From contig OZ019759.1 of the NCBI GenBank assembly GCA_947034885.2, positions 8,682,501 through 8,746,500 on the forward strand: a stretch of DNA of 64,000 nucleotides, in the 5' to 3' direction. The notes beneath the pieces were generated by a model. The model did not search any database. It saw only the letters and a program-made list of their open reading frames with translations, and was not told where the DNA came from. The DNA is from Thuidium tamariscinum. Lineage: Eukaryota; Streptophyta; Bryopsida; Hypnales; Thuidiaceae. Shown here piece after piece: positions 32,579 to 52,230 of the stretch (its first letter is position 1; every line of letters begins with the position of its first letter). A program made the translations under genes and the position numbers.

Positions 32579-32582
32579 TAAT
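32579..32582. repeat. Target-site duplication TAAT (left) of the 19.6-kb transposon
   Basis: TAAT directly precedes the left terminal inverted repeat and TAAT (52227-52230) directly follows the right one. A 4-bp duplication separates this element from classic CACTA (3 bp), hAT (8 bp) and Mutator (9 bp) transposons. Confidence 0.8.
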
Positions 32583-32610
32583 AAGGCCTTATTCGTTAAA
32601 ATGAGACAAA
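32583..32610. repeat. Left terminal inverted repeat, 28 bp
   Basis: It is the perfect inverted match of 52199-52226. Inwards the sequence continues with a degenerate second copy of the terminal motif (TTTTGAGACTTTC). Confidence 0.9.
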
Positions 32611-33200
32611 ACGGTGATTTTGAGACTTTCAAAAATGACTACGAAGTTGCCCTTGAAGAAGAAGTTGTTGAATCCAACGATAAATAGAGGCGAACTTGAC
32701 GTCCCTCAAAGAATTCGGGAGACTTATAGAGATAAAAGATAGTTGTTTGCACTATGTGATGATGTCATAAATGAAGCCAAAAAAGAACATTGATTTTCGA
32801 AGGAATGAAATGAATCAATTACCTTGGGCATTCGCATACATAAGCAACATACAACTTTTCTGAACAAGTTTTATTGAAGTGCATGAATTGTGAAATTCTA
32901 TAGTTGATTTCGAATCCAATGAAAGACTTGAATGAGGTCAATGTACAGTCAAGAAGCCCTCAACTTCTTCCACCTTTTTCTCATGTTATTTGGATACTAA
33001 GCTTTAGACCTGACTATACACAAAGGAAGGACCTTCTCAGTCTAAGACGCGCGAGCTCATAGAACTTTCTATTTATAGTAAAAAGATCTGAAAGCGATTT
33101 AGCTTTCAGAGTTGCCTTCTCTTTCTAGGCCATCTCTATTATTTACCGTTCCTGCTTCTATGCCTCTTAGCTTTGCGAGACCCCTTAAGATGTCCTCGCG
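32611..33200. other. Left subterminal non-coding region
   Basis: There is no gene. A small inverted repeat (CTGAAAGCGATTTAGCTTTCAG, about 33,089-33,110) is visible. It probably holds the 3' ends of the minus-strand genes. Confidence 0.4.
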
Positions 33201-34037
33201 TCAAGAGGAATAATGCGACCCCCTTTCCCTATACAACGTTTTGGTCTCGTTCATACTATGGCATTCACAGGCTTTTCGTTTTGATGGATTTAGGGTTCTT
33301 TGAGGACCTCTTGAAGTGGAGAGAGATTTGGATGGTCTCTGTGGGGGCCTCGGCAACGAGGCCTTCACACCGGCTATGTACGAAAAGGTATCTCCAACTG
33401 ACATTGCCTCCAAAGAGCGTCGATGATCTCGAACAATTCGCTGACGGAAAAGACTGTCCGCCGCCGGCAGATGTCTCGTTCCAGTGGACTTGGAGGATCG
33501 TGTTTGGTTATCCTCGACTCGAGGAAGGCGGACAGTTTGTTCGGAAGCGATAGGTTCAATCTGGGTCCCTTCCCTCGGTGCACTCGTGGACTTCACTGCG
33601 ACGGTAGTGTTAGTAGACGTCGGACAGGGAGCTTGGACAGCATCCTCGAGTCGAGGATGCACTTCCGCCTCTTCGACAGGGAGTTCCAACTTTCGGCTGG
33701 TCGCTCCGTCTTTCTGCGGAGTCGGCGACCAGGACCTTCCCCGACTCGAGGATGTCCGTTTCAACGGCGACGGCGAGCAGATGGGAGTCCTGCCTGTCGT
33801 GCGACTCGGGGGACTGTCGACGACGCCGTCTTCAATGTTTCCCTTGGAAAAGTCTATGGCGGCGGACACCGCATCCGTGGCTTCACAGTGCATGTATGGT
33901 TTGGACACGGGAATTGTTTCGCAGCTCCCACCTCTAGATTCGGAGGTGCACAACGACTGCTTCTCCGAACCAGAGAGGAGGCTCTTCGTGAGCTTCTCCC
34001 TGCCAAGCGTGAAAGGGAAAGCTCCAACCTGCAATAA
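33201..34037 (-). CDS. Ser/Pro/Arg-rich protein part, unknown
   Basis: An open minus-strand frame follows a clear acceptor (CTTTTATTGCAG, just above 34,037) and begins VGAFPFTLGREKLTKSLLSG, so it is probably an exon. It is rich in Ser, Pro, Arg and Thr (SPSPLKRTSSSRGRSWSPTP) and looks disordered. Three copies of the 21-bp palindrome family lie in it (33508, 33640, 33739); two are read as PRVEDN and PRLEDA. It lies downstream of the FCP1-like gene on the same strand and could be an alternative 3' exon of it or a separate gene. I recognise no domain. Confidence 0.35.
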   Translation of the reverse strand, partial: LLQVGAFPFTLGREKLTKSLLSGSEKQSLCTSESRGGSCETIPVSKPYMHCEATDAVSAAIDFSKGNIEDGVVDSPPSRTTGRTPICSPSPLKRTSSSRGRSWSPTPQKDGATSRKLELPVEEAEVHPRLEDAVQAPCPTSTNTTVAVKSTSAPREGTQIEPIASEQTVRLPRVEDNQTRSSKSTGTRHLPAADSLFRQRIVRDHRRSLEAMSVGDTFSYIAGVKASLPRPPQRPSKSLSTSRGPQRTLNPSKRKACECHSMNETKTLYRERGSHYSS

Positions 34038-34159
34038 AAGGATAGTTCCAAATCCAAAGAAATCCGTTCTATGAGTACATAGATGCATGCGGAACGCGGT
34101 ATCCGTGAGGATTTACGAAGCACAATACTTTGAAAACGAGACAGAATCTCATGAAAAAT

Positions 34160-34162
<3 letters not shown>

Positions 34163-34199
<37 letters not shown>
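34163..34199. repeat. (TA)n microsatellite
   Basis: An uninterrupted TA dinucleotide run of about 18 units lies between the FCP1-like gene and the Ser/Pro/Arg-rich frame. Confidence 0.95.
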
Positions 34200-34201
<2 letters not shown>

Positions 34202-34280
34202 AAAAAACGTAACGTACATACAAAAATTAGATACCATTTGCCTGGACTCCCTCGATGCCTAATTCTACAATCAAAAAAAT

Positions 34281-35069
34281 CTACTTCCTACAATGCCGAC
34301 GTCTCTCGACGGTTATGCCCGCCACGGGCACTTCAAAACGAGTGTTCATGCAATCGGCCGACTCCCTCATGACCTCAAGGATTTCCCTGAGGTGAAAATG
34401 GTCGGGAGAGAGGGGGTTATTGCCTATCCTATTTTCGTCTACATATCGAAGCAGCCCCCCGTGGGGGTTGCACCCCGAATGCAGCCGTCGGAGCCACGGG
34501 AGTAGCTGTCCTATGAGGACATCATCCCTCCGATCGAGGTAGCTCCACGTCTGGAGGAAGATGGCGTTCCCGGATTCATTGCAGACACTCTTTTCGGGAG
34601 AGTCGTCAATGAGCAAGGTGTCGTCCGAGGAAAACGACGACCCCGCATTACCGATAGTGTCGAACAGACCGTGTTTCAGGACTTTCATGTTCAATTCTTT
34701 CGGACCACGGTGGAAGAACTTCCCGGGACTGTACTCTATCTTCGTGCAGTTTTCCTGTCCTAGGACGTTGAAGGGCGGCCTGCACCTCGCGAACAAGTGT
34801 CCCACGATGGCCTCCGCGTTATACTTATACATGGACGACCAGACCACGACCTTATTCGCGAATTCGAACACTTGTCTCAAAAACTCGTCGACATTCGGCC
34901 TAGCGAAAACGGCCTTGGACCCGATGATGGTCGGGTACCGATGGTTGAGAACATTGTCTTCGACCTTGTAGTGCTTGAAATCTCTGCCGAATTTTGCCGA
35001 CGATGAGTGACATAGCACACCATTGATGTCGAAGACAATGTTCAACCACTTCCTCCTCGGCGGAGGCAT
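34281..35069 (-). CDS. FCP1/NIF-type HAD phosphatase-like protein, 262 residues
   Basis: From the ATG at 35,069 the protein begins MPPPRRKWLNIVFDINGVLC. It matches the FCP1/SCP (CTD-phosphatase-like) HAD fold: motif I FDINGVLC near residue 14, the ARPNVDEFLRQVFEFANKVVVWSS segment with motif II, and LLIDDSPEKSV with the acidic motif IV. The family normally has DxDGT; here the second Asp is Asn (DIN), while the nucleophile Asp is kept. Phosphatase activity is therefore doubtful, and a binding role is possible. An acceptor (TTCTTTGATCAG) upstream at about 35,122 shows that the frame continues from an exon 5' of this ATG, so the true start may lie further up. It is cargo of the 19.6-kb transposon, downstream of the ParB-like gene on the same strand. 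A captured host gene is likely. Confidence 0.65.
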   Translation of the reverse strand: MPPPRRKWLNIVFDINGVLCHSSSAKFGRDFKHYKVEDNVLNHRYPTIIGSKAVFARPNVDEFLRQVFEFANKVVVWSSMYKYNAEAIVGHLFARCRPPFNVLGQENCTKIEYSPGKFFHRGPKELNMKVLKHGLFDTIGNAGSSFSSDDTLLIDDSPEKSVCNESGNAIFLQTWSYLDRRDDVLIGQLLPWLRRLHSGCNPHGGLLRYVDENRIGNNPLSPDHFHLREILEVMRESADCMNTRFEVPVAGITVERRRHCRK

Positions 35070-35201
35070 GATCAGACGCTCGATCCTCCGCACGACCTCT
35101 CCTCCTGCCTGCGACACTACCTGATCAAAGAAAAACAACAAAGAATTGGAGTTACTTGAATAACTGCAGGACTGGTAAAGCCAAAGTGCGGAGAGACGCA
35201 T

Positions 35202-35628
35202 TGCACCTCGCTACTCGATTGCACCCTTCCCTTAGGAATTGGCTTCATGGGTAGCGGGGGATGTAAGCTGACATCTACGTCGAGCTAAGCCAAAAACATC
35301 GACAAGGGAATGCAATTAGACACGTTCACTAATGTGGATTGAAAATTTTGCAACTTTTTATTTACATGTTGTATAATGTACATCTCTAAAACGTTCAGGC
35401 CGCCATAACTGCACATTCTATTACTACTCTACAATATTTACTACACTCTGCCCACCGCGGACGGGTTCTCCGTCAACGCCAAGACTTCAAGGAGTGGTGA
35501 CCCCCTCCTGTCAAACAGCAATAATCGCAATGAGATTTCAAACCCAGTCAGAACTAACTCTGACAAGTCAACCACATGATCCCAGGAATATTTAATCAAT
35601 CCAAAGCATAAGGATTCGGTCGTTCTAC
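35202..35628. other. Spacer between cargo genes
   Basis: No gene is visible. It probably holds the 3' end of the ParB/methylase-like gene and the 5' part of the FCP1-like gene. Confidence 0.4.
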
Positions 35629-38600
35629 CTACACGGGTTTAGTTGTTTGATGCGTAGATTGCTCCTCTAGTGCCACCGCACGAGTTTGGAGTTCCTCCTC
35701 GTCGGGGTCGTTCTCCCCGTAGTCCAACCTCTCCTCCTCTTCGATCGCAGGAGACGTCTCCACAGTCCTCTGAACTTCTTCAATGGTTTGGGAAGGTGGA
35801 GGCGCTGAGGCAATGGGCTCTATCGCGTGAGATTCTTGGATATCGTCGAGTCGACGATAATCCCGAGCTTCCCCTTCAGTAGGCCCTCGCGTTTGAGGCA
35901 CGGCAACCTCAAACGAGGCGAGGTCCGGCGAGGATGCTCTTGACCGGAGTTGAGATGCCGGAGTGCATTTCACAACCTCAGTCTCTGCCAATGAGACGAC
36001 TGCAGCAGTATCCTCGACTCGAGGATGCGGAAGCCCTAATACCAATTCCTGGACTCCGGGAGGGACTAGAATGGTGGATGTGGCAGGTGACGGAAGGGCG
36101 GACGACTGACCTAGTTGAGTGACCATCATCGTCAGTTTTTGCACTTGAAGCTCCAGCGTAGAAAGCTTTTGCTTGGACTGATTGGACTCCTGAGTGACCA
36201 CGATGAGTTCTCGTTTGGTTTCAGCCAACTCCTTGTCCCTGGCCTTCCTCTCTTCCTCTCGGGCGACCCTTTTCTCCCTCACCTCTTCCTCCCTTGCCCA
36301 GTAGTCCTTCTCCACCTTAATTGTCTTTCCGCCAGGCAGGATGATCGGTTTCAGTTCAACCTGCTTGAAGGTGGCGTCGCAGTCCTCGTCGTCGTGATCG
36401 GATTCGTGCGGATGGTCCATCGGGTCGTCATCATCCCCGAAGTCGTAGTAGAGGGGTTTCCCATCATTGTCGACCTCACCGACGGGGAGTCTCCTCTCTT
36501 GCATCACTACGACCTCGTCGCCGGAAGCCTCCTCGTGTTCATTGGGAGGGTCATTCATAAACGCGTCCTCCTCCCCACCGAAGCCCAATGAATCGTCCTC
36601 CTGCCTCTTCTTCGTCCTCCGCTCCGCCTGCTGCCGTTCCCAATCGGAATCGGTCTCAATGTCCTCGTCTTCGCCCCCGTCACCTTCTCCCTCCTCGCTT
36701 TCTTCCCCATCGCCTTCTCCCCCCTCGCTTTCTTCCCCATCGCCTTCGTTATCTTCATTCTCTTCTTCAGAAGAGGATTGGGGACGCTGCTCTTGGACGG
36801 CCTGGACTTCGACCAACTCCAGATCCGTAGCAGCCGGTCGGGAGACAATACCCGGCGCAGCAGATACGGAGGCAACACCTACCGCAGCGGGTCGAGAGAC
36901 ATTGCCTTGCGCAGCGGGTGCGGGGACATTGCTTGGCGCCGCGGGTGCGGGGACTATTGCTGGCTTGGACATCCAAAGGTAAATCTGGAACGTATTCGTT
37001 CCATATTCGTCTATGCCTTGCACCCCTGGATCTGCGGTTACGTAGGGGCCGATATTCTCCCGCACCCGAGTGTCTGGTTGAATTTCATCTGCCGGCGACA
37101 CTAGAGTCATGGGAGGCGAAGGGGGGGAGTTGGAGTGCACCAACTCCGGTTCACGAGTTTTGGGCTTCACGTACGTCATGGAGTATGGTGAGTTACTCAT
37201 CATGAAGTCACGATCATCCATCTTCTTGGCCACAAGGGCAATTGCCTGATATGATTTCACCTCAGACCTATGAACGAATCCATAGTAATACGCCCCGAAC
37301 ATCTGCAACAATGAGATAATTATATTTAATTCCAGAACAATACTACGAAGTAAATTACATGCTGCCAAGGTTATCGTCGACTCAACGATAAAATATTTGG
37401 TATCTTTTTGACTGTGTTGGTAGCCCTAAACTAAAGAAGGGAATACGTGAGAAGGTATCGTCGACTCGACGATAACTATAATGGTTTAGGAAATAGTACC
37501 TTTGCGGCGAGCATGAACTTCGCTCCCGCGAAGAAGCCCAGGACGTTCTCTTCAGACACTGCAAAAGCCTGAAGCATTTCTAAATAGAACTCCATACGGA
37601 GTTCAGAAGGCTCGATTCTCCACTTCGCCTCAGTGTTCTTCACCCACTCGGAGAAGTACACGTTCTGGACGGGACATCTGTACAATGACTTCACCAAGCT
37701 TCGGCATGATGAAGCAAACTCGTCATTCTTCTTAAAACAGAAGACGAGCGGCACATCTGGAGCTACCCCACGGTTTGTCACGTTGTCGAGCAGCTCCGCC
37801 CGCGCTGGTCTATACGAGGACAATACGCAGTCGTAGTTCCTCAGCTTCAATGCTGCGAATGCCGTCGCGACATTCGTGTCTTGCGGCCCCTGCAAGACAA
37901 AAAGCCAGATGCTCGGGGTGGTGATCTTCGGTTCCAGTTTTGCCGACAGAAAGTTCAGTACTTTGTCGACGGCGCTGGTCATCTCCGTGGGCTTCGACCG
38001 TGGAGCGATTCTCAAGTCCACCAGGGCAAACCTCACATCCCGAGAATCGTACCGATAACTGGAGCTAGTTACCAGCGCCTTCTTTAAGTAGTCCACCCCA
38101 CGAATCTGTACACCTCTAGTGAGTTCTGGTAGCTGATACTTCAGCTTCATGAACTTGTTAAACATATACAGGACCCCGGGAAATGCCTTCTCGAGATCCT
38201 TCGCTCTCTTCAGCCAAGCATCGTTTCGCAGGCGTCTCTTGAAGTACTCAACAGAGGATTGCATGAGCAAAAAATCCCAGGAGACCGAGGTAAAGCGATG
38301 TCTGGCTTTCCAGGCCTTCCAGGTCTTGTCAATGACATCACCACCACTGTTAAAGAAACTGAGATCCGGGTTGATTGCCATCAAGTCTTGGAGGACAACT
38401 TTCTTGCGCTTCCTCCGCTCAACCCACTCCTTGTGGGTCATGTTGTCGGGCACGAGGACTCTCGTCGCAGAGACCAAAACCTTGGGGTACAAGGCTATGC
38501 GTCCTGGAGTTAATCCCAGGAGGTGAACCGCGTTTGCACCGAAGTCAACATCCGTGAAATGGCCGCAGTGTTTAAAGAACTCCCTCTTTAGGGACATGCT

Positions 38601-40470
38601 CTTTATTTTAAAGCCCTTTCCGGCTTTGTATGGCTCGCATGTCATGGGATCAATCAAATCACCCTCGGAGTGTTGCGTCAAGAAACTCTCCCAGAATGCC
38701 CAGAGGTTGTCCGGAAGGGTAATTATTTGGATCTCGTTTTTGAGCTCCGCTGTACCTTTAATCGAAGCGCCGTCTCCTTCAGGATTAATGTTCCTAAATC
38801 GCTCGATGACGGCATTGGTGAAACTCTAATTGAACAGAGAATAAACAGAATGTCAGCGAAAATTAACATTCTAACACGCTATCATCGACTCGATGATAGG
38901 CAGAACATTATGAGAAAGATAGAAACCACACCTCAAGGTTTGAATCTCCCCACATCACATCCTCAGAACCAAACACAAATAAACGTGGAATTCATATCGA
39001 TATCATCGACACGACGATAATGGGTCGACTTCAGCTTACCGTATACTTCTCAAGCTTAAAAATGGCTTGGTTTTTTCTTGTGGCGCCCTCTGAGTGGGTG
39101 TCAGTGGGGCGCTCGTACGTGACCCAGATGCTTCTGCAACTAATAATTTGGTTACCCCACGTCGGCTGCGCGTGGTTCAAATGGTTAGTGCAGTTGTAGA
39201 ACTTCGAGATGTTCCTCAGTTTATTATCGTCGAGCGACCACACGATATATGCATCCCATGTTTGCAGTTCTACTTTTCGAGCCTCTCCACAACCACTTTT
39301 CTGAAGTTCCTGAGAGGCAGTAATGCTGTGTTGGCCGTTTATTATCATGAATTTGCCATCTTTAATTTCATCCCATGTCTTCGGCCTCTCTTCGAGAAGC
39401 TTATCTTGAAGGCCAACAAGGGTGAGGCAAACCTTCTGCCGTTGCTTAGCATCTATCAATTGAACTAGCTGCTTCTTTACGGCATCCACAATATCGCGTT
39501 GAAGAGTACGAATGACGTACTCTAGCTTTGCCACAATGCACTGTTTGATGTCAACTTCTACTGTCTCACTGCTGAACAAAAAACAATTTTTGTGCTCTTT
39601 CTAGAACTCTCTCTAGATGACCGAGAACTTCTCAAAGTCTGTTTTATCAGACTGAGTAGGTGCTGGACCGGCTGACAGCGTTGTAGTGAGCGCCGAACCA
39701 AAACTACCACCTGTTACTACAGCAGACGAAAGACTTTTCTTCCGTTTCCTGCTTGATTCTCCTTCTCGAGAAGGTACGTCTCGTTTCTTCGGCTCTGAAC
39801 GTGATTGACCGGGCCTCGTCACTTGGCTCCCAGACCGTGAAAGCGTGGAGACTCTCGCGGCCGGAGTTGATGTTTCCTCTCGTTGCCTCTGATCGGTGGG
39901 GTGGCCAAGAATAGGTTGCCTTTGAACGTTTTCTAAGGCATACCGGTCCAGTGTCTGAAAAATTAGCCGCAGTCTGCTTGCGTTCGACCGGGCCATGCTG
40001 TCTTTCCAGGGAACAAAGCCAGACTTCACGAACTGCACGTTCAATGCATCCATTTCACCACCTTCAAGAAAGGTCATGAGCGCATCCAAATCAAATTTCC
40101 CGTGGTAGCCGTTGACGTCTATGACGACAGAATGGCAATGCTCTTTCGATTTTCCATCATTGTCCACCTCCCGCAGCACAATCAAAACATAATTCTTTTG
40201 GTGCTCCTCAATAAGTGTCACTTTCTCCCTGATATTCCAAGGAATATATGTCGTCGTCCCTGCAACCCGGTATCGGAGGTAAACATAATTTCGAAACCGA
40301 TTCACACCAAAGCTCCATGTGTGAATATGGTCCTTGAATTGCCAGAGCGTGCCGTAGCTGTCCTCCATCTCCCCAATGAAGGGCTCGCCGACTAACGGGT
40401 TCACAAACGGCTGAAGATGGTGCTTAGTCGCAGAGTAGTCATAGCCGTCGTTTGTCTCCATGGCGGACAT
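35629..40470 (-). CDS. ParB-like domain fused to a degenerate methyltransferase-like domain, with acidic C-terminus
   Basis: Exons: 40470-39616 (ATG in a GGAATGTCCGCCATGG context), about 39612-39040, 38825-37500 and 37302-35629; the last two introns have GT-AG borders and phase 0. Domain order: an N-terminal region (about 285 residues, tail basic and Ser-rich); a ParB/sulfiredoxin-like segment (GKFMIINGQHSITASQEL) followed by TWDAYIVWSLDD; a large region with FALVDLRIAP, then NVLGFFAGAKFMLAAK joined across the intron to MFGAYYYGFV. The last looks like the F-x-G-x-G SAM-binding motif of a permuted DNA methyltransferase, with a poorly kept catalytic motif. The C-terminus is Ala/Pro-rich, then strongly acidic, then coiled coil. 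Between the first two exons the frame holds two TAG codons (39613-39615 and 39601-39603); either a short intron removes them or the gene is damaged. Two palindromes lie in each of the last two introns and two in the last exon. Confidence 0.5.
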
Positions 40471-41449
40471 TCCTGTATTTGTAGGACAAAATGTAAGGTC
40501 AATTTCTTCATTCCGCGTATCGTCGACTCGATGATAATCATTTATAATTGATTTGTACCTTCTCAGGTGTATAATTCTGGTGAAGACGAATTCTTGGACC
40601 TTCATTGCTTAAGCATAAGATTTCCTCTACGTTCCTATTTTTGAACTAATAGTTTTCGTTTGATTCAGCCATTTTCCTCCCGGATGCCTGTCTACTGATG
40701 ATAAAGGATCTCTTATCATCGGATCGATGATAAGAGAAGCATTATTTCTTCTTCCCCTATATGTAACACTGTTTCTGTACATCATCGATTCGAGGATAAG
40801 CTTTCAGAAAAACATAAAACGTCACTGTAGTTGAGAGTTCTTTCAATGCTATATTATCGTCGAGTCGATGATAATGGTGAACAATCTAGGGATGGTCTCA
40901 ACTTACGAGGTTCACTCTTTCTTCATTATGGACTTTTGTCATATCATCGGGTCGAGGATAAGACACAATTCCCCGAATTAAAGTAATTGCGATATCCAGA
41001 ATGGGTCTACATAGAAAATAGTTTCCAAGATATTAGTATTACTAATCCTTGTTTTGAGAATAAAAAACAAATTCATGTACGTAATTACGTGGGGTTGACA
41101 TCATCGGGTCGACGATAAGTAGTTTCAAGGCGCGGTTGCTTTCATTTGCTTGGGAATTTTGGCTCTGTTACTATTATCATCGGTTCAACAATAACCTTCG
41201 TCTCTCTTACTAAATTCATTTTCGGTCTCAAATTACGAGTTCCACTTTATCATGATTATGGAAGTCTTCTTCTTATCATCGGGTCGAGGATATATCACAA
41301 AACGCCGAATTCGATCATTTCTACTGTTAAACCGATTACCCTAATGCAGTATCGTCGAATCGATGATACCAATTACCCCTGCTGCACTAAACCATAATCC
41401 ATACGAATTCCTCTAGAAGTAATTGATAATGTGCTCTCTTTTAGTGTCC

Positions 41450-41660
41450 TATAGCCTAAACCCTAATTCCCCTAACAAACTGTACAATACTATTTCACCT
41501 GAACCACTACACAACTAATTTACAATTCATCTCAGAAGTGATTCAGGGTTCTATTACTGTGTCTATAAGGAACCCTCAGACGTTCCTAAACCCTAAACCC
41601 AACGACTTGAATCCCTGCATTCGCTATGAGAAGCAAAACCCTAAATCCACAGCAAAAAAC
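41450..41660. repeat. Telomere-like CCCTAAA motifs
   Basis: Several AACCCTAAA/CCCTAAACCC motifs lie at the left end of the AT-rich block. They match those at 10,990-11,230 in copy 1. Confidence 0.55.
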
Positions 41661-42609
41661 AAGACTAATTGTGCACATTCTTACCGTCACACACGAAGAC
41701 AGCGATCGAAGTTGTTGATGAAGAAAGGGAACCCAAATGAAATCCGAGCCCCTGCCAAAGAAAACACATGCCCAGTTACGCACGATCTCACCCAAAAAGA
41801 GAATTGTTACGATTGCATAACGAAAAGCAAGTTCACAACTAATCAATTTAGCTTAATTACAATCAACTTCGGCTTTCGCAACAAACTTCACATTTCACTC
41901 ACCTGAACTCGTTCCCAACGGGAAGTTCAGGAGCTGCTCGAAATCGCTCCACCTAAAAGCGCCGCTCGTGCCACCTCCCGCACTCCCCCCACAACACGCT
42001 AAGACCTCCAAACTGAATTACAAAGTTCTTGAAAGCTAACACCCTCGAAACAGAATGGGCGCAATGGTGACGCCGACGCCTAAACCCTCAACGCTTACAC
42101 CTCAATACACTAAACCGCAAGCATCGTTCACAAACCCTAAACCCTCGTCGCATGCACAAACACACACAATAGAACACAAAGCAGGACAGAAGGTGACAAG
42201 GCGAGCGCGCGCGAGGGAGAGAGGAAAATGAGCGCGCCCGAAAATGGCTCCCCCAGGTGGAGATGACGACCACCCGACCCTGCCGCTTAGGTTCGGTACC
42301 AGACCTAAGCCTAGGCTCGACATCAAGATCGGTACCGCCGTGCGTGGAGGCTCGGCAACAAAGCAACGCGAGGTTCGGCACCGAACTTGTCGGTTTATAG
42401 TTCACGGTTTATCGAATTAAACTCCTATACATTAAGATTACATTCATGAAGACTTGATGACGAATGCTGTACAATACATTTTCCAAAATAGAGTGTCCAT
42501 CCCATTTTTACTAGCTTAAGGTACACTGCAACTTGTTTAAATGTTATTTTCTTTAACTTAGGTCCAAGAATAAAATTAAAAAAGATGCCATAATTTTTTT
42601 TTAAATCTA

Positions 42610-42882
42610 AGGTAGGTACACCCAAAAGCGCCACTTATTCATGCTGAGCCTAGTTCCTACTATTAATTAGTTCAAATTTGTATGTAGTCTTGTTGGCAAG
42701 TGAAAGCATGTTCCAACACACCAAAGAATGCATGATTTGGATACCGTATGCAAAAGTTATTAACAGTCCAAGTCTGTTTCTAAAAGCGCCATCTACAGTC
42801 TGTGAACATGACTGATTTCAAAAATGTATGTGCACTGTAGATGGCGCTTTTAGGAACAGGGCGCTTTTGAGTGTACCCACCT
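42610..42882. mobile_element. Foldback MITE, about 273 bp
   Basis: The outer inverted repeats (AGGTAGGTACACCCAAAAGC... and ...GCTTTTGAGTGTACCCACCT) differ by two bases in 23. A second, perfect 20-bp inverted pair lies inside (CTAAAAGCGCCATCTACAGT at 42780 and its complement at 42834). The segment is missing from the matching position of copy 1 (about 12,168), so it is an insertion. I could not settle the target duplication. Confidence 0.75.
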
Positions 42883-44169
42883 ATGTACAAATTAAAATTA
42901 CTACGAAAACCCATATGAAACTATCATGATTTTTTCAAACATCCTACTATTTTACAAATAAATGTTTTTTTTAATTTAAAAAATTAAAAAGTAGATCAAG
43001 GAGAAAAAAGTGAACTTTTGTATACATATGCTTTTGGAAAAATATCGGAAAGCCTATTAAGAACTTCAGTGTTTCTCGTTCATTGCATGAGCACGGGGTT
43101 GCTTCTACGTAAAATTAAAGAATTTATGAATGATAGGATGCATTGGTATTGTACAAGATTTCTTAAACTCTTACGGATTTCACATGAAAAAAAATCTGAA
43201 AAGAACTTGTAGAAGGGACATTGGCCTTCGTGATACCATGACGACTTCTTATATTGTGCAATTCTAAGGATTTGGTTTACCATTTCATTTGGAATAATGG
43301 TTCAATCCTATCATTTCTAAAAACTCTTAAAAGTATGAGGTGTTTTGAACTTCATATAAAAAACATACAAAAATAATATGTTAAAGTTAGATTGACATTC
43401 AACCATAAGATTGCAAGATGAATTCCTTTTGAGTAACTTTGTAATTCGTAAATGACATAATGCATTTTAAAAAGTGGCTTTACCTTTTATCAGTAATTCA
43501 TATAAATTTTTTTGGCAACATGAACAAATTTAGCTTCAAGTCATAACAAAAGTCATGGCAATCCCCTCAATTCTTCCATATATGAATGCATTTATATTAA
43601 GAAGGTAACAAGGGTCTTGACGATTGAATTAGTAAAGAACATTATAACTTTACCATAATATTTCTATATATTTTTGAATAATACTGTTTTTCTTAGATGA
43701 ACAGTTAATTGCAATATATGTAATCTATAATGTGTACAAATGACAATCATAATCAACAATGAATGCAACAATAATGACAGAAGACATTGCAAAAGACATC
43801 AAACAAGACAGCTAATGTTCTCTTCGAATTTTCATGCCCAAAAATTTATTGTTATATACAAACTTTAAAAGCAAATATTTAAAAAACATTTTTAGAACTT
43901 TGTTCTGTAGCTTGCAAATCATCCCTTCGGCCCTACCCAATAGGATGAATAAACTTGGCCTCCTCATGAAGTAGGATAAAAAAACATACCAACTTCTTCA
44001 AATTTAGTTTTCCTATTCTCAATGTAAATTGCATGACATTTCTGGTTTTCTTAAGGTTCCGAAAATTTAAAGAAAATGGCAAAGTTTAGGTTCATTTGGT
44101 TTATAAATGTACATTACGCAATTTGTAGTCAAGAGATGCAAAGGTAATCATAGGAATGACATGTTTAAG

Positions 44170-46104
44170 GAAATGTCAACTCGAACAAAAAAATTTTGCC
44201 TATTGTGAACGTGACTTCCATGACATTTGTGGTTTCAGGTTTGTAGACAAAAAATGGCAGGGTTTGGGTATTTGGTTTCTCTTCATGTATTTTTGGTTGT
44301 TTGTGGTTATAAATTGAAAATTGCCCATGGAAATCCAATGTTCTAAGACATGCCAACTTCAACAAATTTTTTTGCCTATTGTGAACGTGAATTGCATGAC
44401 ATTTGTGGTTTCAGGTGTTTAGACAAAAAATGGCAGGGTTTGGGTATTTGGTTTTTGTTAAAGCATTTTTGGTCGTTTGTGGTTATAAATTGAAAATTGC
44501 CCATGGAAATCCAATGTTCTAAGACATGCCAACTTCAACAAAAAAATTTTGCCTATTCTGAACGTGAATTGCATGACATTTGTGGTTTCAGGTGTTTAGA
44601 CAAAAAATGGCAGGGTTTGGGTATTTGGTTTTTGTTAAAGTATTTTTGGTCGTTTGTGGTTATAAATTGAAAATTGCCCATGGAAATCCAATGTTCTAAG
44701 ACATGCCAACTTCAACAAAAAATTTTTGCCTATTGTGAACGTGAATTGCATGACATTTGTGGTTTCAGGTGTTTAGACAAAAAATGGCAGGGTTTGGGTA
44801 TTTGTTTTTTGTTAAAGTATTTTTGGTCGTTTGTGGTTATAAATTGAAAATTGCCCATGGAAATCCAATGTTCTAAGACATGCCAACTTCAACAAATTTT
44901 TTTTGCCTATTGTGAACGTGAATTGCATGACATTTGTGGTTTCAGGTGTTTAGACAAAAAATGGCAGGGTTTGGGTATTTGGTTTTTGTTGAAGTATTTT
45001 TGGTCGTTTGTGGTTATAAATTGAAAATTGCCCATGGAAATCCAATGTTCTAAGACATGCCAACTTCAACAAATTTTTTTTGCCTATTGTGAATGTGAAT
45101 TGCATGACATTTGTGGTTTCAGGTTTTTAGACAAAAAATGGCAGGGTTTGGGTATTTGGTTTTTGTTAAAGTATTTTTGATCGTTTGTGGTTATAAATTG
45201 AAAATTGCCCATGGAAATCCAATGTTCTAAGACATGCCAACTTCAACAAATCTTTTTTGCCTATTGTGAACGTGAATTGCATGACATTTGTGGTTTCAGG
45301 TGTTTAGACAAAAAATGGCAGGGTTTGGGTATTTGTTTTTTGTTAAAGTATTTTTGGTCGTTTGTGGTTATAAATTGAAAATTGCCCATGGAAATCCAAT
45401 GTTCTAAGACATGCCAACTTCAACAAATCTTTTTTGCCTATTGTGAATGTGAATTGCATGACATTTGTGGTTTCAGGTGTTTAGACAAAAAATGGCAGGG
45501 TTTGGGTATTTGTTTTTTGTTAAAGTATTTTTGGTCGTTTGTGGTTATAAATTGAAAATTGCCCATGGAAATCCAATGTTCTAAGACATGCCAACTTCAA
45601 CAAATCTTTTTTGCCTATTGTGAATGTGAATTGCATGACATTTGTGGTTTCAGGTTTGTAGACAAAAAATGGCAGGGTTTGGGTATTTGTTTTTTGTTAA
45701 AGTATTTTTGGTCGTTTGTGGTTATAAATTGAAAATTGCCCATGGAAATCCAATGTTCTAAGACATGCCAACTTCAACAAAAATTTTTTGCCTATTGTGA
45801 ACGTGAATTGCATGACATTTGTGGTTTCAGGTGTTTAGACAAAAAATGGCAGGGTTTGGGTATTTGGTTTTTGTTAAAGTATTTTTGGTCGTTTGTGGTT
45901 ATAAATTGAAAATTGCCCACGGAAATCCAATGTTCTAAGACATGCCAACTTCAACAAATTTTTCTTGCCTATTGTGAACGTGAATTGCATGACATTTGTG
46001 GTTTCAGGTGTTTAGACAAAAAATGGCAGGGTTTGGGTATTTGTTTTTTGTTAAAGTATTTTTAGTCGTTTGTGGTTATAAATTGAAAATTGCCCATGGA
46101 AATG
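44170..46104. repeat. 177-bp tandem satellite, about 11 units
   Basis: Units can be phased on AAGACATGCC at 44345, 44521, 44698, 44875, 45052, 45229, 45406, 45583, 45760 and 45937. The spacing is 176 and then 177 bases eight times in a row. Neighbouring units differ at only a few bases, mostly in the length of the T run before TTGCCTATTG. A more divergent unit precedes 44,345, and a still more degenerate one is visible near 44,000. Copy 1 of the surrounding block has no array, so the expansion is recent. No reading frame runs through it. Confidence 0.95.
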
Positions 46105-46949
46105 AAACGTTGTAGTAATTATTTTGTTTTATGAATGATGAGGCTAACCAGAGCAAACTTCTAAACAAGTAAAATTTTGTATGCATACAAAATACGTAAA
46201 TTTGATTTTCTTCCTGGAAAGAAGAAATTAAAGGATTATTGAGGGCCTACAGTTGAAGGACTATTAGTAACAGCTGCAACATTGAAGTATACGTTAAAGG
46301 CTTGCAAGGTTTAGAAATGTATTTATTCTTTTGAAGAATTCACTCTATTCGTTGGAAGATTGAGTTATACTTACAAGCCTACCATGAAATATTATAATTA
46401 ATTTTATTATTATTAAGAACTAATAATTTTAGTTGTATTTGAATTTTTGTTTGTAAACGAGCATCCCTAACCTGTGAAAGCCTTCCAAGCTTTAGTGCAT
46501 TCTGTTGAAGAAGACAGAAATCACCAAGCTAATGAATTGTGTTTTAGATTTTATAATATGAGTGCACATGAAGTGAAATTGAAGTCCTCTCGAATAAATC
46601 AGATTAAAAAAAAATGACTCAAGGTTTATATGTATAAACCTCATACATATATGAAATTGCTTTCACATATTCTGAAGTCTGACATCATTTTTGGAAAGAA
46701 TGAAATGTAGAAATGTTTGTCATTCTTCACTTTAAAGAATAATTTCAAAAACAATTAAAGTATAAATTTAGATGTAATTTCCCGATTAAAAAATATAACC
46801 TATACGAATGGGTTATAGACAATATATCCTAAACCATCAACTGAAGCACATCTTATGCACAAATATTTGTGAATCCTAAATCATAGAATGGAAGTATAAA
46901 CCTCAATCACTGAAGCCTAAAGAACACCAAAGATTGAAGAATATCCCAT

Positions 46950-47160
46950 GAAGCTAAATCCTAAACCCTAAAACGGAATCCAAAACCCTACAAATAAATC
47001 CTAAACCCTAAACCCTACAATTTAACCCTACATCCTAGAAGTACATCTGAATCCCAGAATTGAACCCTAAAACCTAAACGTAGATAGTGAACTCTAGAAA
47101 TTAGCCCTAAACCCTAAACCCTACAAACCCTAAACCCTAAAGCCTAAGGAATAAAAGGTG
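46950..47160. repeat. Telomere-like CCCTAAA repeats
   Basis: Runs such as CCCTAAACCCTAAACCCTAC are interspersed with TCCTAAA and CCCTACA variants. This matches 15,170-15,300 in copy 1. It is an interstitial plant-type telomere-like tract that belongs to the repeated block. Confidence 0.75.
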
Positions 47161-47672
47161 AACCCTAAACTCCAAAGCAATAAAAGCATAAGACTAAATG
47201 AACTGAATTCCCGAGAAGGCTTGGTCACATTTTTAGAAATCAGTAAATGCAAAGGGAGAAGTTCAGAAGTCAACTGGAGGCATTTGAAGTGGACAACTGT
47301 ACGAAGTCATGAATTAGTTAGCCGACAAAAAGATTCCTCTTACCTGTCAGAGGAAGCGCTGAAATTTAGTCATTTGTAGCTGTGGACCGCACGTTGGTGC
47401 GCCAAGGCTGCCAGCAAGTGGGGCCGAAAGTTCTGTAATGCCGAAAGTTTTGGATCACCTACCCAGAATTTTGGGGTTCAGGGCGTGTATGTGGACAGAT
47501 TTGAAATATGTGCCTTGCGCGCGTTTTTTTCCCGCCCTCGCTGTCTTGGTGCTTCGGCTTCTCTTCTCGTGACCTCATTGATTTCGTCATGCATGAATAA
47601 TTGATCGTATGCTCACTGTGTTCTCTTGCGCTCCGTTTTCTCATTTCTTAATCGTGCATTCGCTTCTGTAGA

Positions 47673-48761
47673 TTGTATGAACTCATTGGAACTGTACTCA
47701 GTTGCTTGTTTTGCGCATTGGCGTGGACATTAACATCCTGCTGCGGAGGTACTGTTTTCTATGAACATCATATTTGACCTGTTTTGTCTGCACTTCACTG
47801 TTTGCTAAGACAATGTACTGTTTCGTAGGATGTGTAATGCAATTGTTTGTGACTTTTACGCAAATGTTGATGAAGTTCTGGTCTACGCTTGCCTCCGAAA
47901 TAATCGCCATAAATTACGGAATATGTACATGATCATTATCATCGATTCGATGATAACATTCATGTATATCATCGAGTCGATGATAATTACGAGGAACATA
48001 GAAGTAATATAGTATAATGCAGGAAGTATCTTCACATCTTAAAAAGGGAGGAATTGGATGGGATGGTCGTGCTCTGCTGATGTCTATAACATTTCTTTTG
48101 TATAGAAGTTATCCTCGTGTCGATGATAACTACTTAGTAGACGAAGCACTTCATGTCGCCTTCACTTGAAATGACTAGTGTAGGAGTTTGTTCTGTGGGA
48201 TTTCTCGGAATCTTGGTTTACACGTACATTGTAAATTGTCATGGCTTTCTATGGATTATCGTCGAGTCGAGGATAGTTTGCGAACTTGTAATTGTGTGTG
48301 TCCTTATTTTCTATGGGAATTCTTATTTCATTAATGAAATAAAACCATGAATGCTTCAGACATTGTGTATGGGTCATAATTATCATCGGGTCGAGGATAA
48401 GTGCATTATCTGTTTGAATATTTTCTTAGTGCTAGTTTGTTAGAGCAGACACTTTTCTATAATGAATATGTGAGCACATATTGCAGAAGATCTTACTTGT
48501 CCAGATTATCCTTGATTCGAGGATAACTGTTATTGTACTCGGTATTGGTTTTTTCTTTGGTTAATCGAAATGATTATTCTTGGACCTAACAGTAGGTTTT
48601 ACTTCTGATCTCTTCTAGTTTTATTCATGTTGAGATTCTGTATTCAATTTGATATCCCTCTGGTATGTGTCGTCTATTTTACGATATCGATATTTTAAAG
48701 ATGCATTTGTTATCGTCGACTCGATGATGTTCATTCTGATTGGTGACTTATTTTTTACAGA
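47673..48761 (+). other. Upstream region of the transposase gene, rich in palindromes
   Basis: Seven copies of the 21-bp palindrome occur here (47936-48730). The region ends with a pyrimidine-rich tract and acceptor (TTTTTTACAG, 48751-48760). It probably contains the 5' leader and an intron of the transposase gene; no exon upstream is certain. Confidence 0.5.
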
Positions 48762-51626
48762 ATGAATTACCATGGGCCAGAGGACTTCACAAATCCAGTT
48801 CCGGTACTTCCACTGGATGTTTGTCTATGCGAGGGGATCCCTCGTGCAAAGTGGGTTACACAGCCCGTGACTCTGCAAAACGAAGATGGCGTGGATATTG
48901 CAAGGGGCATTTGTCAGAATGTTGATCCTGAGCTAGTCTTTGACCAGAATGGGAACTCGCTTGGTGATGATCGAGTCGCCATTCATATTGCAGAGTCTTT
49001 GAACGAGGAGCTTTTCTCATCGGCAAATATGTGGTCTATACGATCTTGGCACATTAGGAGAGTTTTTTTGTATGACGGTGCTTCTTTGTATGACCATGAC
49101 GAAATACAGAAGTACAATACAGCCATGAATCCAAAGAGAGTTCGAAAGGGGGTTCGGTCATATGAATCAACTCGCTTGAGGATGGATCCTGAGGTCCCTC
49201 CCAAAAAAGAGTTTCTCTTGACTATGGAATCGATCACAGCAGTTTCCACGAAAACTTGTTGTAGGAAGATTTGTGTACAACATTTCCCGCGTGCACTTAT
49301 TTAAGCAATACGGATCGAGTTGTATGGTAGTAATGACTTCAAAGCTCGCAACAAGACTTTGTTGGAAGTGCATAGGCAGATCCACAAGGATGCTAGTGGA
49401 AAAGAGTGGATCACCTTGAAAGAGAGGGAAGTCTGTCCTATTGCGTGGTGGATCATTCATGGGATTGCGAAATGTACATTTTATAGGTACAAAGAGAAAG
49501 CCAAAACTGGAAATCAAGCCGATGTCCATGGGAATATGGGAAGTAAGAAGCCTCTCATGCAAACTCTTCAAGCTACTGCCACACTTCGAAGGTTAATTGA
49601 GTCAGATGCTGATAAGATGCCACACAAAACAAGGACATTGGAAACTGGGGAGAAGGTCACTGCCATGGTTCTGCCATCCTCGTTTCGTTGGAGTGATCAA
49701 TTGAAAACAATCAATGAATCCAATGCAAGCTTCAATTTGCCACCAATTTCTTCTAGCGGTTTGAGCAATATTCGTCGTGATTCTTTTCCTGAGTTTGCTG
49801 CAAAGGCTCGTGGAGATACATTTGCTAGATGTGGTTTGTGTGACAAGTACAACCAATTGAGAAGCGCTTGTGTGGGTGAAAAGGCAAAATCTAAGTGGGA
49901 ACAACTGAAGAAGTCCACAATCAGGGGCAATTGGCTCATAGACAACTCTACTACGGACATCGGGATCAATCAGTAAGAACGCCAGATAAGGTGTTGTGCA
50001 TTATTCACGACAAGATGGATCATTCCAAGACTGCTTCTCCTCACTTTTCCCACAAGACTAAAGTAACCGAATCCTTCATGAAAATGCCTGTTGCAGTGAC
50101 CGGTATGATTGCTCACGGACATGGTGATGTGCGATATGCGCACTATAGTTTGGGCATTTATCCAACAGATTCAAATCATACCATTGGATCGATAGCGAGG
50201 TTGTTGCGTGATTTGGAAGGAGTGCCAAAGAATTCATCGCGTAAGTTATTTTCAATAGAAGACAAGCAATCCACCTTGACAAAGGCACTTTTAAATGGAG
50301 CAGAGACTTGTTTGGATTCCCTCCTTCCACCTCCAGAGGATCCACTTCCAACTAATCCTCTCCCCCCTGTATTAATATTACAGTTAGACAACTGTTTAGG
50401 GGACAACAAGAATTGTTATGTTTTCGGTTTTTGCTCTATGCTTGTATGCAAAGGTATTTTTCGTGAGGTGTACATCAACTTCCTCATTGTAGGACACACT
50501 CATGAAGATATAGATGCTCTTTTTGGTCGATGGAGTTCCAGATTGAAGACAAATAACTATCCAACACTTCCGAGGCTCATGAAGTCATTCATGGATTCTG
50601 ATGAGCACCCTGTGATTCCTCATCTCATTGAGGAAGTTCCTGACTTCAAGGCGTTTGTACATGGATACCTCGGCACGGGTGGGGACTTCTTAGAGGGTCA
50701 TTCTAGATCTCAACAATTTAAGTTTTTTAAGGATTCAAATGGATGGCCTCTCATGGAGTATAAGAATTTGTGTACAGATGATAAGTGGTTGCCTGAGGGA
50801 GGCAAGGGAATAAGATTGTGGTCCGAGACTGCAGATGGGCTTCCTAAAATACCAATAGGTAGTCCTCCACCTCTAGTTCCTGAACCGATGAAGGCGCTTT
50901 TAGATGTAAAGAAGGGTCTGACCGGTTTTGTTGAATACTGGAAGAAAATGGCAAATGACGATTACATAGGAGAATTTAGGCGGAAGAATGGCGCCTTAGA
51001 AGATTATTGGAAAGGCGTTCGAACAGCTTTGGATGCACCTCTTCAAGTGCGTGAAGCGTTACTAGATGGATTTTGGCCGGCTTCTAGGGTTACCCCAGAC
51101 GAGACAGATCGAATGCAAAGAGATGGGACATTGCATGAGGAAGATGCAAAAGATGCACCATTTGTTGGACGGAGGCGTGATTGTCCGCGTCCTTCATTTC
51201 GTGTTAATGTGGATACACATGAAGGCTCTTTTATTGCGGTGCGTCCTGCTGATGGTGATCCTAAACCATTTTGGCTTGCTAGAGCCATTACGGCTCCAAG
51301 TCCAGATCCAGGGCATATGCATATGATTCGAATTCAATATTGGACGCCTGCCTCAAACCGGCACATTAATATGGATACGTATGAGGGATGGGACTTGAAA
51401 CAAGGGAATGTATGGCGTGAAGACTCCGCGATCAAGCCAACCTGGTCAAGTACGGGTTGTATTCTAATAGCTTGGAAGCCTCGTTTCAGAGAGAACACTA
51501 AAAAACCAAAAGTGTCTATTCCAAATTTACAAATTGGAATCATTAAGGCATCTGTGGCAGCCATTACAATCGAAGAACGAAGCAATGATGAAGATGAGGA
51601 GGATGAGCCTATGGAAGAAGAGTGAA
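48762..51626 (+). pseudogene. DDE transposase of the 19.6-kb transposon, interrupted
   Basis: The frame opens at an ATG (48762) just after an acceptor. The first part (about 400 residues) ends in a Cys-containing segment (ARCGLCDKYNQLRSACVGEK) followed by KSKWEQLKK. The catalytic part has IIHDKMDHSK (first Asp), LQLDNCLGDNKN (second Asp) and VGHTHEDIDALFGRWS (third acidic site). The C-terminal part has a small folded-looking domain (PFWLARAI ... IQYWTP ... GWDLKQGNVW) and an acidic tail ending EDEPMEEE. The D / DNC..NKN / GHTHEDID set is seen in a widespread family of plant, oomycete and animal transposases. The copy is broken by an in-frame TAA at 49302-49304 and by a change of frame around 49,930-49,945, just before RQLYYGHRDQ. 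The gene diverges from the ParB-like gene across the central block. Confidence 0.75.
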
Positions 51627-52198
51627 TATTTTATAGTGGTAGTATGTTGTTGTTGCATTGTTGTATTTCAAGTATTAGATTGTTTTTTTCATATTGTAGT
51701 TTAAAAGTATATTTATAAAGTAGAATGGTATTTAAATGCATATATAGTACAAGAATTGGATATGTATTTCATCACAATATTGTGACTATATAGTACATAT
51801 TGATTTCTATTAATAGTAAATATAGTTTTTGCAATTGCATTTCAAATTTGTGTGTACAAAATATTTTCCTGCATGAAGGAGTACGTGAGTACGTGATAAG
51901 TTCGTGAAGTCAGAGTATGATATCATCAAACTTTACATGTGTGTTTCAATAAGTAGAAGTGTCCATTTAAAAAAACACCGAACTTGAAAATGTTTCAAAT
52001 GAGGTGTTTTGTTTACTTATAAAACAATTGGAAGAGGAAATTTGAATGTTGATAGTAGATATTTGACACTTGTAGAAGTAAGAAAATAATAATAAAAGTT
52101 AATTTTTCGCATTCTTGAGTCTCAATTTAATGAGAAGTCTCAATTTAATGAAGACTTTTTTAGCCTTAAAATAGAAAGTCATTAAAATGAGACCACAA
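51627..52198. other. Right subterminal region with repeated end motifs
   Basis: It is AT-rich and non-coding. Near the end the motif GTCTCAATTTAATGA occurs twice (about 52,119-52,150) and its inverted form TCATTAAAATGAGAC once (about 52,180), all variants of the terminal sequence. Such subterminal repeats are typical transposase-binding sites. Confidence 0.6.
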
Positions 52199-52226
52199 TT
52201 TGTCTCATTTTAACGAATAAGGCCTT
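52199..52226. repeat. Right terminal inverted repeat, 28 bp
   Basis: It is a perfect inverted match of 32583-32610 and is followed directly by the TAAT duplication (52227-52230). Confidence 0.9.
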
Positions 52227-52230
52227 TAAT

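Follow-up and report, generated by a model that had tools for sequence, protein, structure and literature searches.

Lineage-specific spelling of a dispersed palindrome in a moss DNA transposon: putative binding sites of an element-encoded protein

Introduction

Why would a DNA transposon carry the same 21-bp palindrome over and over in both of its arms, and which protein might read it? The question is raised by a 64,000-nucleotide (64-kb) stretch of the genome of the moss Thuidium tamariscinum (GenBank assembly GCA_947034885.2, contig OZ019759.1, positions 8,682,501 to 8,746,500 of the forward strand), referred to below as the window, which holds one copy of a large transposon. An initial annotation had reported about 25 such palindromes between 33508 and 48730, and had suggested either a self-mark recognized by a ParB/methylase-like protein of the element or tiny selfish palindromes that spread inside it. 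The comparison of copies described here suggests that the palindromes are putative sites at which a dimeric protein encoded by the element binds, in the manner of VANC in VANDAL elements or TnpA in Spm, a reading that we consider reasonably probable.

The palindrome and its distribution

The window was scanned with the pattern TTATCVTCGRNYCGABGATAA, sites being scored by mismatches. At a limit of three mismatches this yielded 23 palindromes; one more (33640) has four, and all lie inside 33508-48730, in agreement with the number and range first reported. Their absence from the central block and the flanks was also borne out: no palindrome with at most four mismatches occurs in 41370-47935 or outside 33508-48730. 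Ten order-1 Markov simulations gave no site with at most three mismatches and two with four. The sites do lie within the transposon, as annotated, but the transposon is longer than had been proposed (32583-52226); the first palindrome is 925 bp from its left end and the last 3.5 kb from its right end. The positions are as follows, where p1 to p6 are genes of the left arm, DUF7869 denotes the presumed transposase and no strand is assigned.

33508..33660, two palindromes (33508, 33640) inside the p1 open reading frame (ORF, 33201-34112), encoding PR[LV]ED motifs
35840..36028, two palindromes (35840, 36008) inside the p3 ORF (35629-37425), encoding RRLDD and PRVED; in all four subfamilies compared
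37371..37475, a pair of palindromes (37371, 37455) where p3 and p4 adjoin; shared by the four subfamilies compared
38879..39020, two palindromes (38879, 39000) between p4 and p5; 39000 in all four subfamilies, 38879 in the window and in copy L035
40517..41369, nine palindromes at or upstream of the 5' end of p6 (40517, 40713, 40779, 40854, 40941, 41098, 41174, 41273, 41349)
47936..48730, a group of seven palindromes preceding the DUF7869 gene (47936, 47966, 48109, 48256, 48380, 48506, 48710), in alignment columns common to subfamilies

The initial annotation needs correction in that four sites (33508, 33640, 35840 and 36008) fall within open reading frames. Its arms, TTATCRTCGA and TCGAYGATAA around one base, recur at 23 sites with at most five mismatches, but only two of the 23 are perfect and eight have three or more; the true consensus is therefore broader, with A, C or G at position 6 and C or G preferred at the centre. 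The motif derived from 78 distinct V-type sites (V being A, C or G at position 6) reads T-TATC-V-TCGA-S plus its mirror image, so that two like half-sites, TATCnTCGA, flank one base. TATC and TCG are near-fixed, the A of TCGA is present in 85% and the centre is C or G in 80%. Since the pair 6/16 is complementary in only 36 of the 78 sites (23.7 expected, P 0.003), the two halves vary largely but not entirely independently of each other, which suits a protein dimer better than a hairpin. A hairpin or RNA role was rejected because mirror positions vary mostly independently.

Across the 363-Mb genome, with the same pattern read backwards as control, the strict palindrome occurs at 88 sites (reversed, 0) and the core TATCnTCGAnTCGAnGATA (TATCNTCGANTCGANGATA) at 1,225 (reversed, 0). 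Placement refers to the first 50 listed sites of the strict V pattern and of its counterpart with T at position 6, the 1,225 core sites being counted without individual placement. All 50 listed strict V sites (88 in all) are in or beside elements of the family or its derivatives of about 250 bp: 40 inside the expected span of a p4 copy, eight in derivatives bounded by the terminal inverted repeats (TIRs) of the family, one just ahead of a DUF7869 gene (C7:15047, L028) and one adjoining a single TIR (L097). Equal density in unrelated regions, which would have spoken against a self-mark, was thus not found among the listed sites. The T-type sites, with T at position 6, number 219; among the 50 listed, 22 are in p4 spans, six in a TIR-bounded element at C2:45.55-45.57 Mb, six at C2:6.20-6.21 Mb (three of these in L053, with p4 41% and p5 56% identical), three beside distant DUF7869 genes (L099, L100) and three at most 4.5 kb from a TIR. 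As far as the listed strict V sites go, the motif is confined to one family; it has subfamily variants in noncoding regions, as in VANDAL elements.

Conservation at orthologous places

The left arm of L035 shows 73/67% identity to that of the window, and synonymous sites are saturated for p4, p5 and p6, and unsaturated for p1 and the phosphatase gene (p2). Between the two copies, the palindrome at 35840 is 95% identical with flanks at 54%, that at 38879 is 86% identical with flanks at 38%, and that at 41273 is 86% identical with flanks at 35%. Over 12 noncoding sites of the window, the mean identity is 0.69 against 0.51 in 1,132 overlapping random windows (P 0.0009), a mean that takes in three sites without an L035 counterpart; 40779, 40941 and 41174 have none there.

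Seven right-arm representatives, with pairwise identities of 47-64% in this arm apart from two pairs at 83 and 95%, have site columns in common, and five columns hold a site (at most four mismatches) in six or seven of the seven. In the 26 right arms that make up the young groups, non-CpG changes are less frequent in the palindromes than elsewhere (12/2559 vs. 1208/109032, p 0.001). The objection that positions might be identical between copies with no sign of independent conservation does not hold. On these alignments, the palindromes have evidently been kept at orthologous places against the saturated p4-p6 background. Selfish spread of tiny palindromes, the other early suggestion, is disfavoured by these orthologous places and by the change in place described below; a single three-copy 41-bp local repeat, in the promoter cluster, contains palindromes and is the sole local repeat family that does.

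Dialects at position 6

A scan in which position 6 was left free separates two dialects. T stands at position 6 in seven of 174 half-sites of V-type elements (the window's and related lineages) and in 42 of 46 half-sites of the T-type elements L046/47, L050 and L051, L021 being left out because it overlaps L047; several of the V sets are close relatives, so that the counts lack independence. At seven positions of the left arm a site is present in the window, L035, L046 and L048 alike, with at most four mismatches in the window and five in the others. At these, by a hand count, T occupies 12 of 14 half-sites in L046 vs. one of 42 in the other three. Because T and V face each other at homologous positions common to four subfamilies, the dialect difference arose in place, by substitution.

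The T-type copies form one clade in the p65 and p4 trees (support 0.99 and 1.0, seven copies). Across these seven sequences, fixed differences between T-type and V-type number 15 in p4 and five in p65. A third element, L104, whose p4 is 46% identical, has C in all eight of its half-sites, and more distant families (seven loci) are mostly T/C mixtures at position 6. At sites inside ORFs the encoded residues change with the DNA (RRLDD in the window, LRVEDD in L046), which argues that selection would act on the DNA and not on the peptide. Such one-base-pair spelling by lineage would be expected of address tags that every lineage recognizes through a protein of its own.

Small derivatives

Elements of about 250 bp were reached from six orphan V sites; they have the TIRs of the family and carry two palindromes at a distance of 121-122 bp. 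These elements comprise little beyond the TIRs and the palindromes, which lie about 70 bp from the left end and 42 bp from the right. To reduce bias towards the motif, further copies were collected by the 100 bp between the palindromes (40 matches, of which 35 were added, four were already in the set and one overlapped a neighbour), and 36 of the 41 derivatives aligned keep both palindromes at no more than four mismatches. The first site never has T at position 6 where readable; in the second, both sides have T in 27 derivatives, a single side in 13 and neither in one. By column majority, the first is a perfect V-type site and the second a T-type site with one mismatch. Among the derivative palindromes of L061-L095, 76 of 108 lost CpGs became TG or CA, suggesting that the derivative copies are methylated.

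Structure and genes of the element

The limits of the element were obtained by comparing copies.

32583..52226, no strand assigned, whole DNA transposon, 19,644 bp; at the right end homology breaks off at the same point in most of 30 loci
32583..32607, plus strand, left TIR AAGGCCTTATTCGTTAAAATGAGAC, 25 bp, from terminal comparison of copies
52202..52226, minus strand, right TIR, 25 bp, the same repeat as at the left end, from terminal comparison of copies

The element is flanked by a 4-bp target duplication, TAAT, at 32579-32582 and 52227-52230, and matching 4-bp duplications were found in 10 of 10 copies for which the two ends could be compared (TIRs and duplications were read by eye; an eleventh copy, L044/L012, was left out because its right end is missing). 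The 23 inner TIR bases have 155+158 genome-wide matches at no more than one mismatch. TIRs, target duplications of fixed length and near-identical copies at different places identify a cut-and-paste DNA transposon. Its ends are not those of CACTA elements: the TIR is AAGGCCTTATTCG (AAGGCC...) and the target duplication has 4 bp, not 3 bp, in the ten copies. Its genes are as follows.

33201..34112, minus strand, p1, ORF of no known family, conserved at 46-61% amino-acid identity in three other subfamilies; ratio of nonsynonymous to synonymous substitution rates (dN/dS) 0.26-0.37
34281..35210, minus strand, p2, NIF (NLI-interacting factor)-type phosphatase, Pfam PF03031, E 7.6e-14
35629..37425, minus strand, p3, acidic low-complexity ORF without known family, from ORF comparison
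37476..38825, minus strand, p4, without known family; at least 94 copies genome-wide, from 95 match rows
39031..39600, minus strand, p5, weakly ParB-like (IINGQHS), from copy comparison and a PHROG match
39613..40608, minus strand, p6, N-terminal part of the same protein as p5, with a basic linker, from copy comparison
48747..51625, plus strand, DUF7869 protein (presumed transposase), read from three successive open stretches (48747-49304, 49305-49976, 49895-51625), PF25273 in the third, E 5.3e-46

In L035 and L046, p5 and p6 are one open frame; the window copy has the same frame with two stop codons between them. A Pfam scan of nine element ORFs and one central-block ORF gave NIF and DUF7869 as the sole matches at E<=0.01, and rescanning eight sequences at E<=1 added sub-cut-off matches to other families only. 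The first and third stretches of the DUF7869 gene have dN/dS of 0.07-0.17. Its synonymous divergence across subfamilies is 0.57-0.61 in the C-terminal part and 0.85-1.1 in the N-terminal part, whereas p4-p6 are saturated, and the DUF7869 tree puts the T-type copy elsewhere than the p65 and p4 trees do; on both grounds, modules seem to have been exchanged between lineages. No literature on DUF7869 turned up in our search.

Several further features were recorded. The genome gives 49 matches to chlorophyll a/b-binding proteins and contains CCCTAAA-type repeats, in keeping with a plant or alga as host. The NIF-type phosphatase gene (34281-35210), possibly a captured host gene, is also present in the three other subfamilies compared, at 85% to 50% identity. 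The central block contains eleven 177-bp tandem repeats (96% matches, 44161-46103), followed by CCCTAAA-like arrays at 46956-47147. Outside the element, two 300-bp stretches (25062-25361 and 54449-54748), 99% identical and 29.4 kb apart, are perhaps parts of flanking retroelements. Contig C11 (17.5 Mb, 4.8% of the genome) carries 40 of the 95 p4 match rows, an accumulation on one small chromosome; that C11 is a sex chromosome is perhaps conceivable, as a guess.

The candidate reader

The initial annotation had proposed recognition by a ParB/methylase-like protein of the element. The placement of the listed sites in the family, their conservation and the lineage-wide base changes all fit recognition by an element-encoded protein, whereas the ParB/methylase identity was not upheld. 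The Pfam ParB_N profile (PF02195) has no match at E<=10 anywhere in the genome, while matching in 11 of 14 control genomes; the one lead is a weak PHROG match of p5 to ParB (phrog_723, E 0.012), and a ParB identity is not supported. No ParB chain occurs among the matches to solved structures. For N6_N4_Mtase (PF01555), 43 weak matches were found in the genome, none above the cut-off and none on a p4 copy, although two lie 11-15 kb from one; a methylase identity of p4, which has no Pfam match, is likewise not supported. Relatives of p4 and p5 were not found in viral contigs, nor those of p5 in phages. The VANC domains are DUF1985 and DUF287 (PMC5735166, in part). Pfam finds neither in the ORFs of the element, which on this count falls outside the MULE/VANC group.

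The reader could be a left-arm protein, p6-p5-p4. In its own copies it would bind at promoters, within genes and between them, and it would bind the small derivatives as well; bound copies would be kept open or transcribed against host silencing, as VANC does for Arabidopsis VANDAL elements, where its binding to the motif leads to loss of DNA methylation. Perhaps it also licenses mobilization, as TnpA does for Spm. A one-base-pair change of the address would then give each lineage a private system.

The presumed DUF7869 transposase may also be the reader itself. L021, a T-type copy, has a DUF7869 protein whose C-terminal part is 92% and N-terminal part 75% identical to that of the window despite the differing dialect, and in the DUF7869 tree it is nested among V-type copies. 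Because both trees show the T-type copies as just one lineage, this discord names no reader by itself, and L021 would make only a weak case against the transposase.

Discussion

An element-encoded reader is favoured because the site is dimer-like, occupies fixed and conserved places, occurs in one family and differs between lineages throughout and in place. Several observations weigh against this reading, the transposase alternative among them. No DNA-binding domain was recognized in p1 or p3-p6 with Pfam, NCBIfam and PHROGs, or with PDB profiles of p4, p5 and p6; single-sequence structure predictions of p4 and p5 are poor, with a predicted local distance difference test (pLDDT) of 36.6 and 34.9; and as all left-arm genes are linked, p6-p5-p4 is indistinguishable from p1 or p3 as reader. 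Three of the 12 noncoding sites of the window are without counterpart in L035, and one of the four young groups does not show rarer non-CpG changes in palindromes (8/459 vs. 139/16762). CpG decay in the 26 right arms is not significantly lower in palindromes (13/361 vs. 206/3443, p 0.07), and CpG protection as a sign of hypomethylation was rejected on this ground and because one of four groups ran the opposite way. To these must be added the interdependent half-site counts, the above-chance complementarity of pair 6/16 (36 vs. 23.7), the 10 T-type sites, among the 50 listed out of 219, without an assigned element, and second derivative sites that are half-T (13 of 41) or without T (1 of 41). 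Palindrome columns of the derivatives also show no conservation above that of the remaining columns (0.87 vs. 0.90); such flat conservation is as expected of dead copies, and the presence of the palindromes shows that the source carried both and proves no function.

The same sites could be accessory sites of the TnpA kind, at which a second element protein joins the ends for excision, anti-silencing not being their job. The derivatives, with two palindromes near their ends and little more than TIRs besides, speak for this, and Spm TNPA recognizes subterminal repeats that are cis-determinants (PMC2613891, in part). The window element, however, has no palindrome within 925 bp of its left or 3.5 kb of its right end, and its sites lie at promoters, between coding stretches and in ORFs, so that we rate this account as unlikely. 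About as unlikely in our judgement are operators of an autoregulatory repressor or activator that co-ordinates only the element's own genes: the largest clusters do flank the central block, one upstream of p6 and the other upstream of the DUF7869 gene, but the ORF sites of p1 and p3 in all four subfamilies (33640 weakly, 35840, 36008) and the palindromes of coding-free derivatives are left unexplained. The odds of both accounts overlap with those of the preferred reading, since all three have the same reader with a different effect.

That the element exploits sites of some host transcription factor is hard to credit. A dimer site could be read by a host factor, but all 50 listed strict V sites are in or beside elements of the family, and related lineages in one genome differ in dialect, which a single host factor would not drive. 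We give hardly more than passing credence to ParB/parS-like nucleation, in which a ParB-type clamp would load and spread, or a ParB-linked methylase would mark TCGA. The IINGQHS stretch of p5 and its weak PHROG match (E 0.012) point that way, against which stand the missing ParB_N match at E<=10, the missing N6_N4_Mtase match on any p4 copy and the absence of ParB chains among the structure matches. The palindromic form of the site recalls ParB/parS, as does a protein whose loop is NGQHS-like, but no ParB family match was obtained here. Bacterial parS sites are few and clustered.

Among known systems, VANC of VANDAL elements is a close parallel to recognition by an element-encoded dimer. In VANDAL elements, a short motif is concentrated in one transposon family and recurs in introns, intergenic and upstream regions (PMC5735166, PMC10398659), as here; subfamilies differ at one motif base, with C-type and T-type variants and binding in noncoding regions, and a conserved transposase stands beside a fast-evolving reader, the latter predicted in the present case (PMC5735166). 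The VANDAL motif, in contrast, has nine bases (YAGTATTAY) and frequently stands in tandem repeats that change rapidly (PMC5735166), whereas the moss motif is a 21-bp palindrome at stable orthologous places, also in ORFs, and changed in place by substitution. The moss element further differs in having DUF7869 instead of the VANDAL transposase, a 4-bp target duplication and no DUF1985/DUF287 match. VANDAL elements, as MULEs, carry a MULE transposase. With Spm/En the element shares its large size, a presumed second DNA-binding protein, subfamily-specific motifs and defective derivatives that keep the motif (PMC2613891, in part); for CACTA elements, the same source describes subfamily-specific subterminal motifs and defective elements. 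Unlike those of Spm/En, the sites of the window element are not subterminal, although the small derivatives do have sites near their ends; the TIR begins AAGGCC and not CACTA, and the target duplication has 4 bp, not 3 bp. In including coding DNA and sparing the ends, the spread of the palindromes resembles VANC targets more than Spm TnpA sites, and the derivatives fit either.

A bolder reading, which we advance tentatively and as somewhat more doubtful than not, is that of a whole-genome address code. One-base-pair dialects (A/C/G, T, C and C/T mixtures) would be the private systems of co-resident lineages; sets of some fifteen to twenty sites would switch in place together with their reader; the code would override protein coding at four sites; and a parasitic derivative of about 250 bp would carry one site for each main dialect and so be served by both lineages.

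Our literature search found nothing on transposon-encoded anti-silencing in moss, nothing on ParB plus methyltransferase transposons in moss matching this element, and, among the titles listed, nothing on such palindromes in moss transposons. To our knowledge, the recognition of self against host by transposons, and its splitting into separate systems, is known mainly from VANDAL elements of Arabidopsis. About a hundred copies (at least 94 copies of p4) in several dialects, with candidate readers beside them, constitute a natural experiment on the joint change of specificity in a DNA-binding protein and its many scattered targets, and the element might yield sequence-specific DNA-binding domains of a new type.

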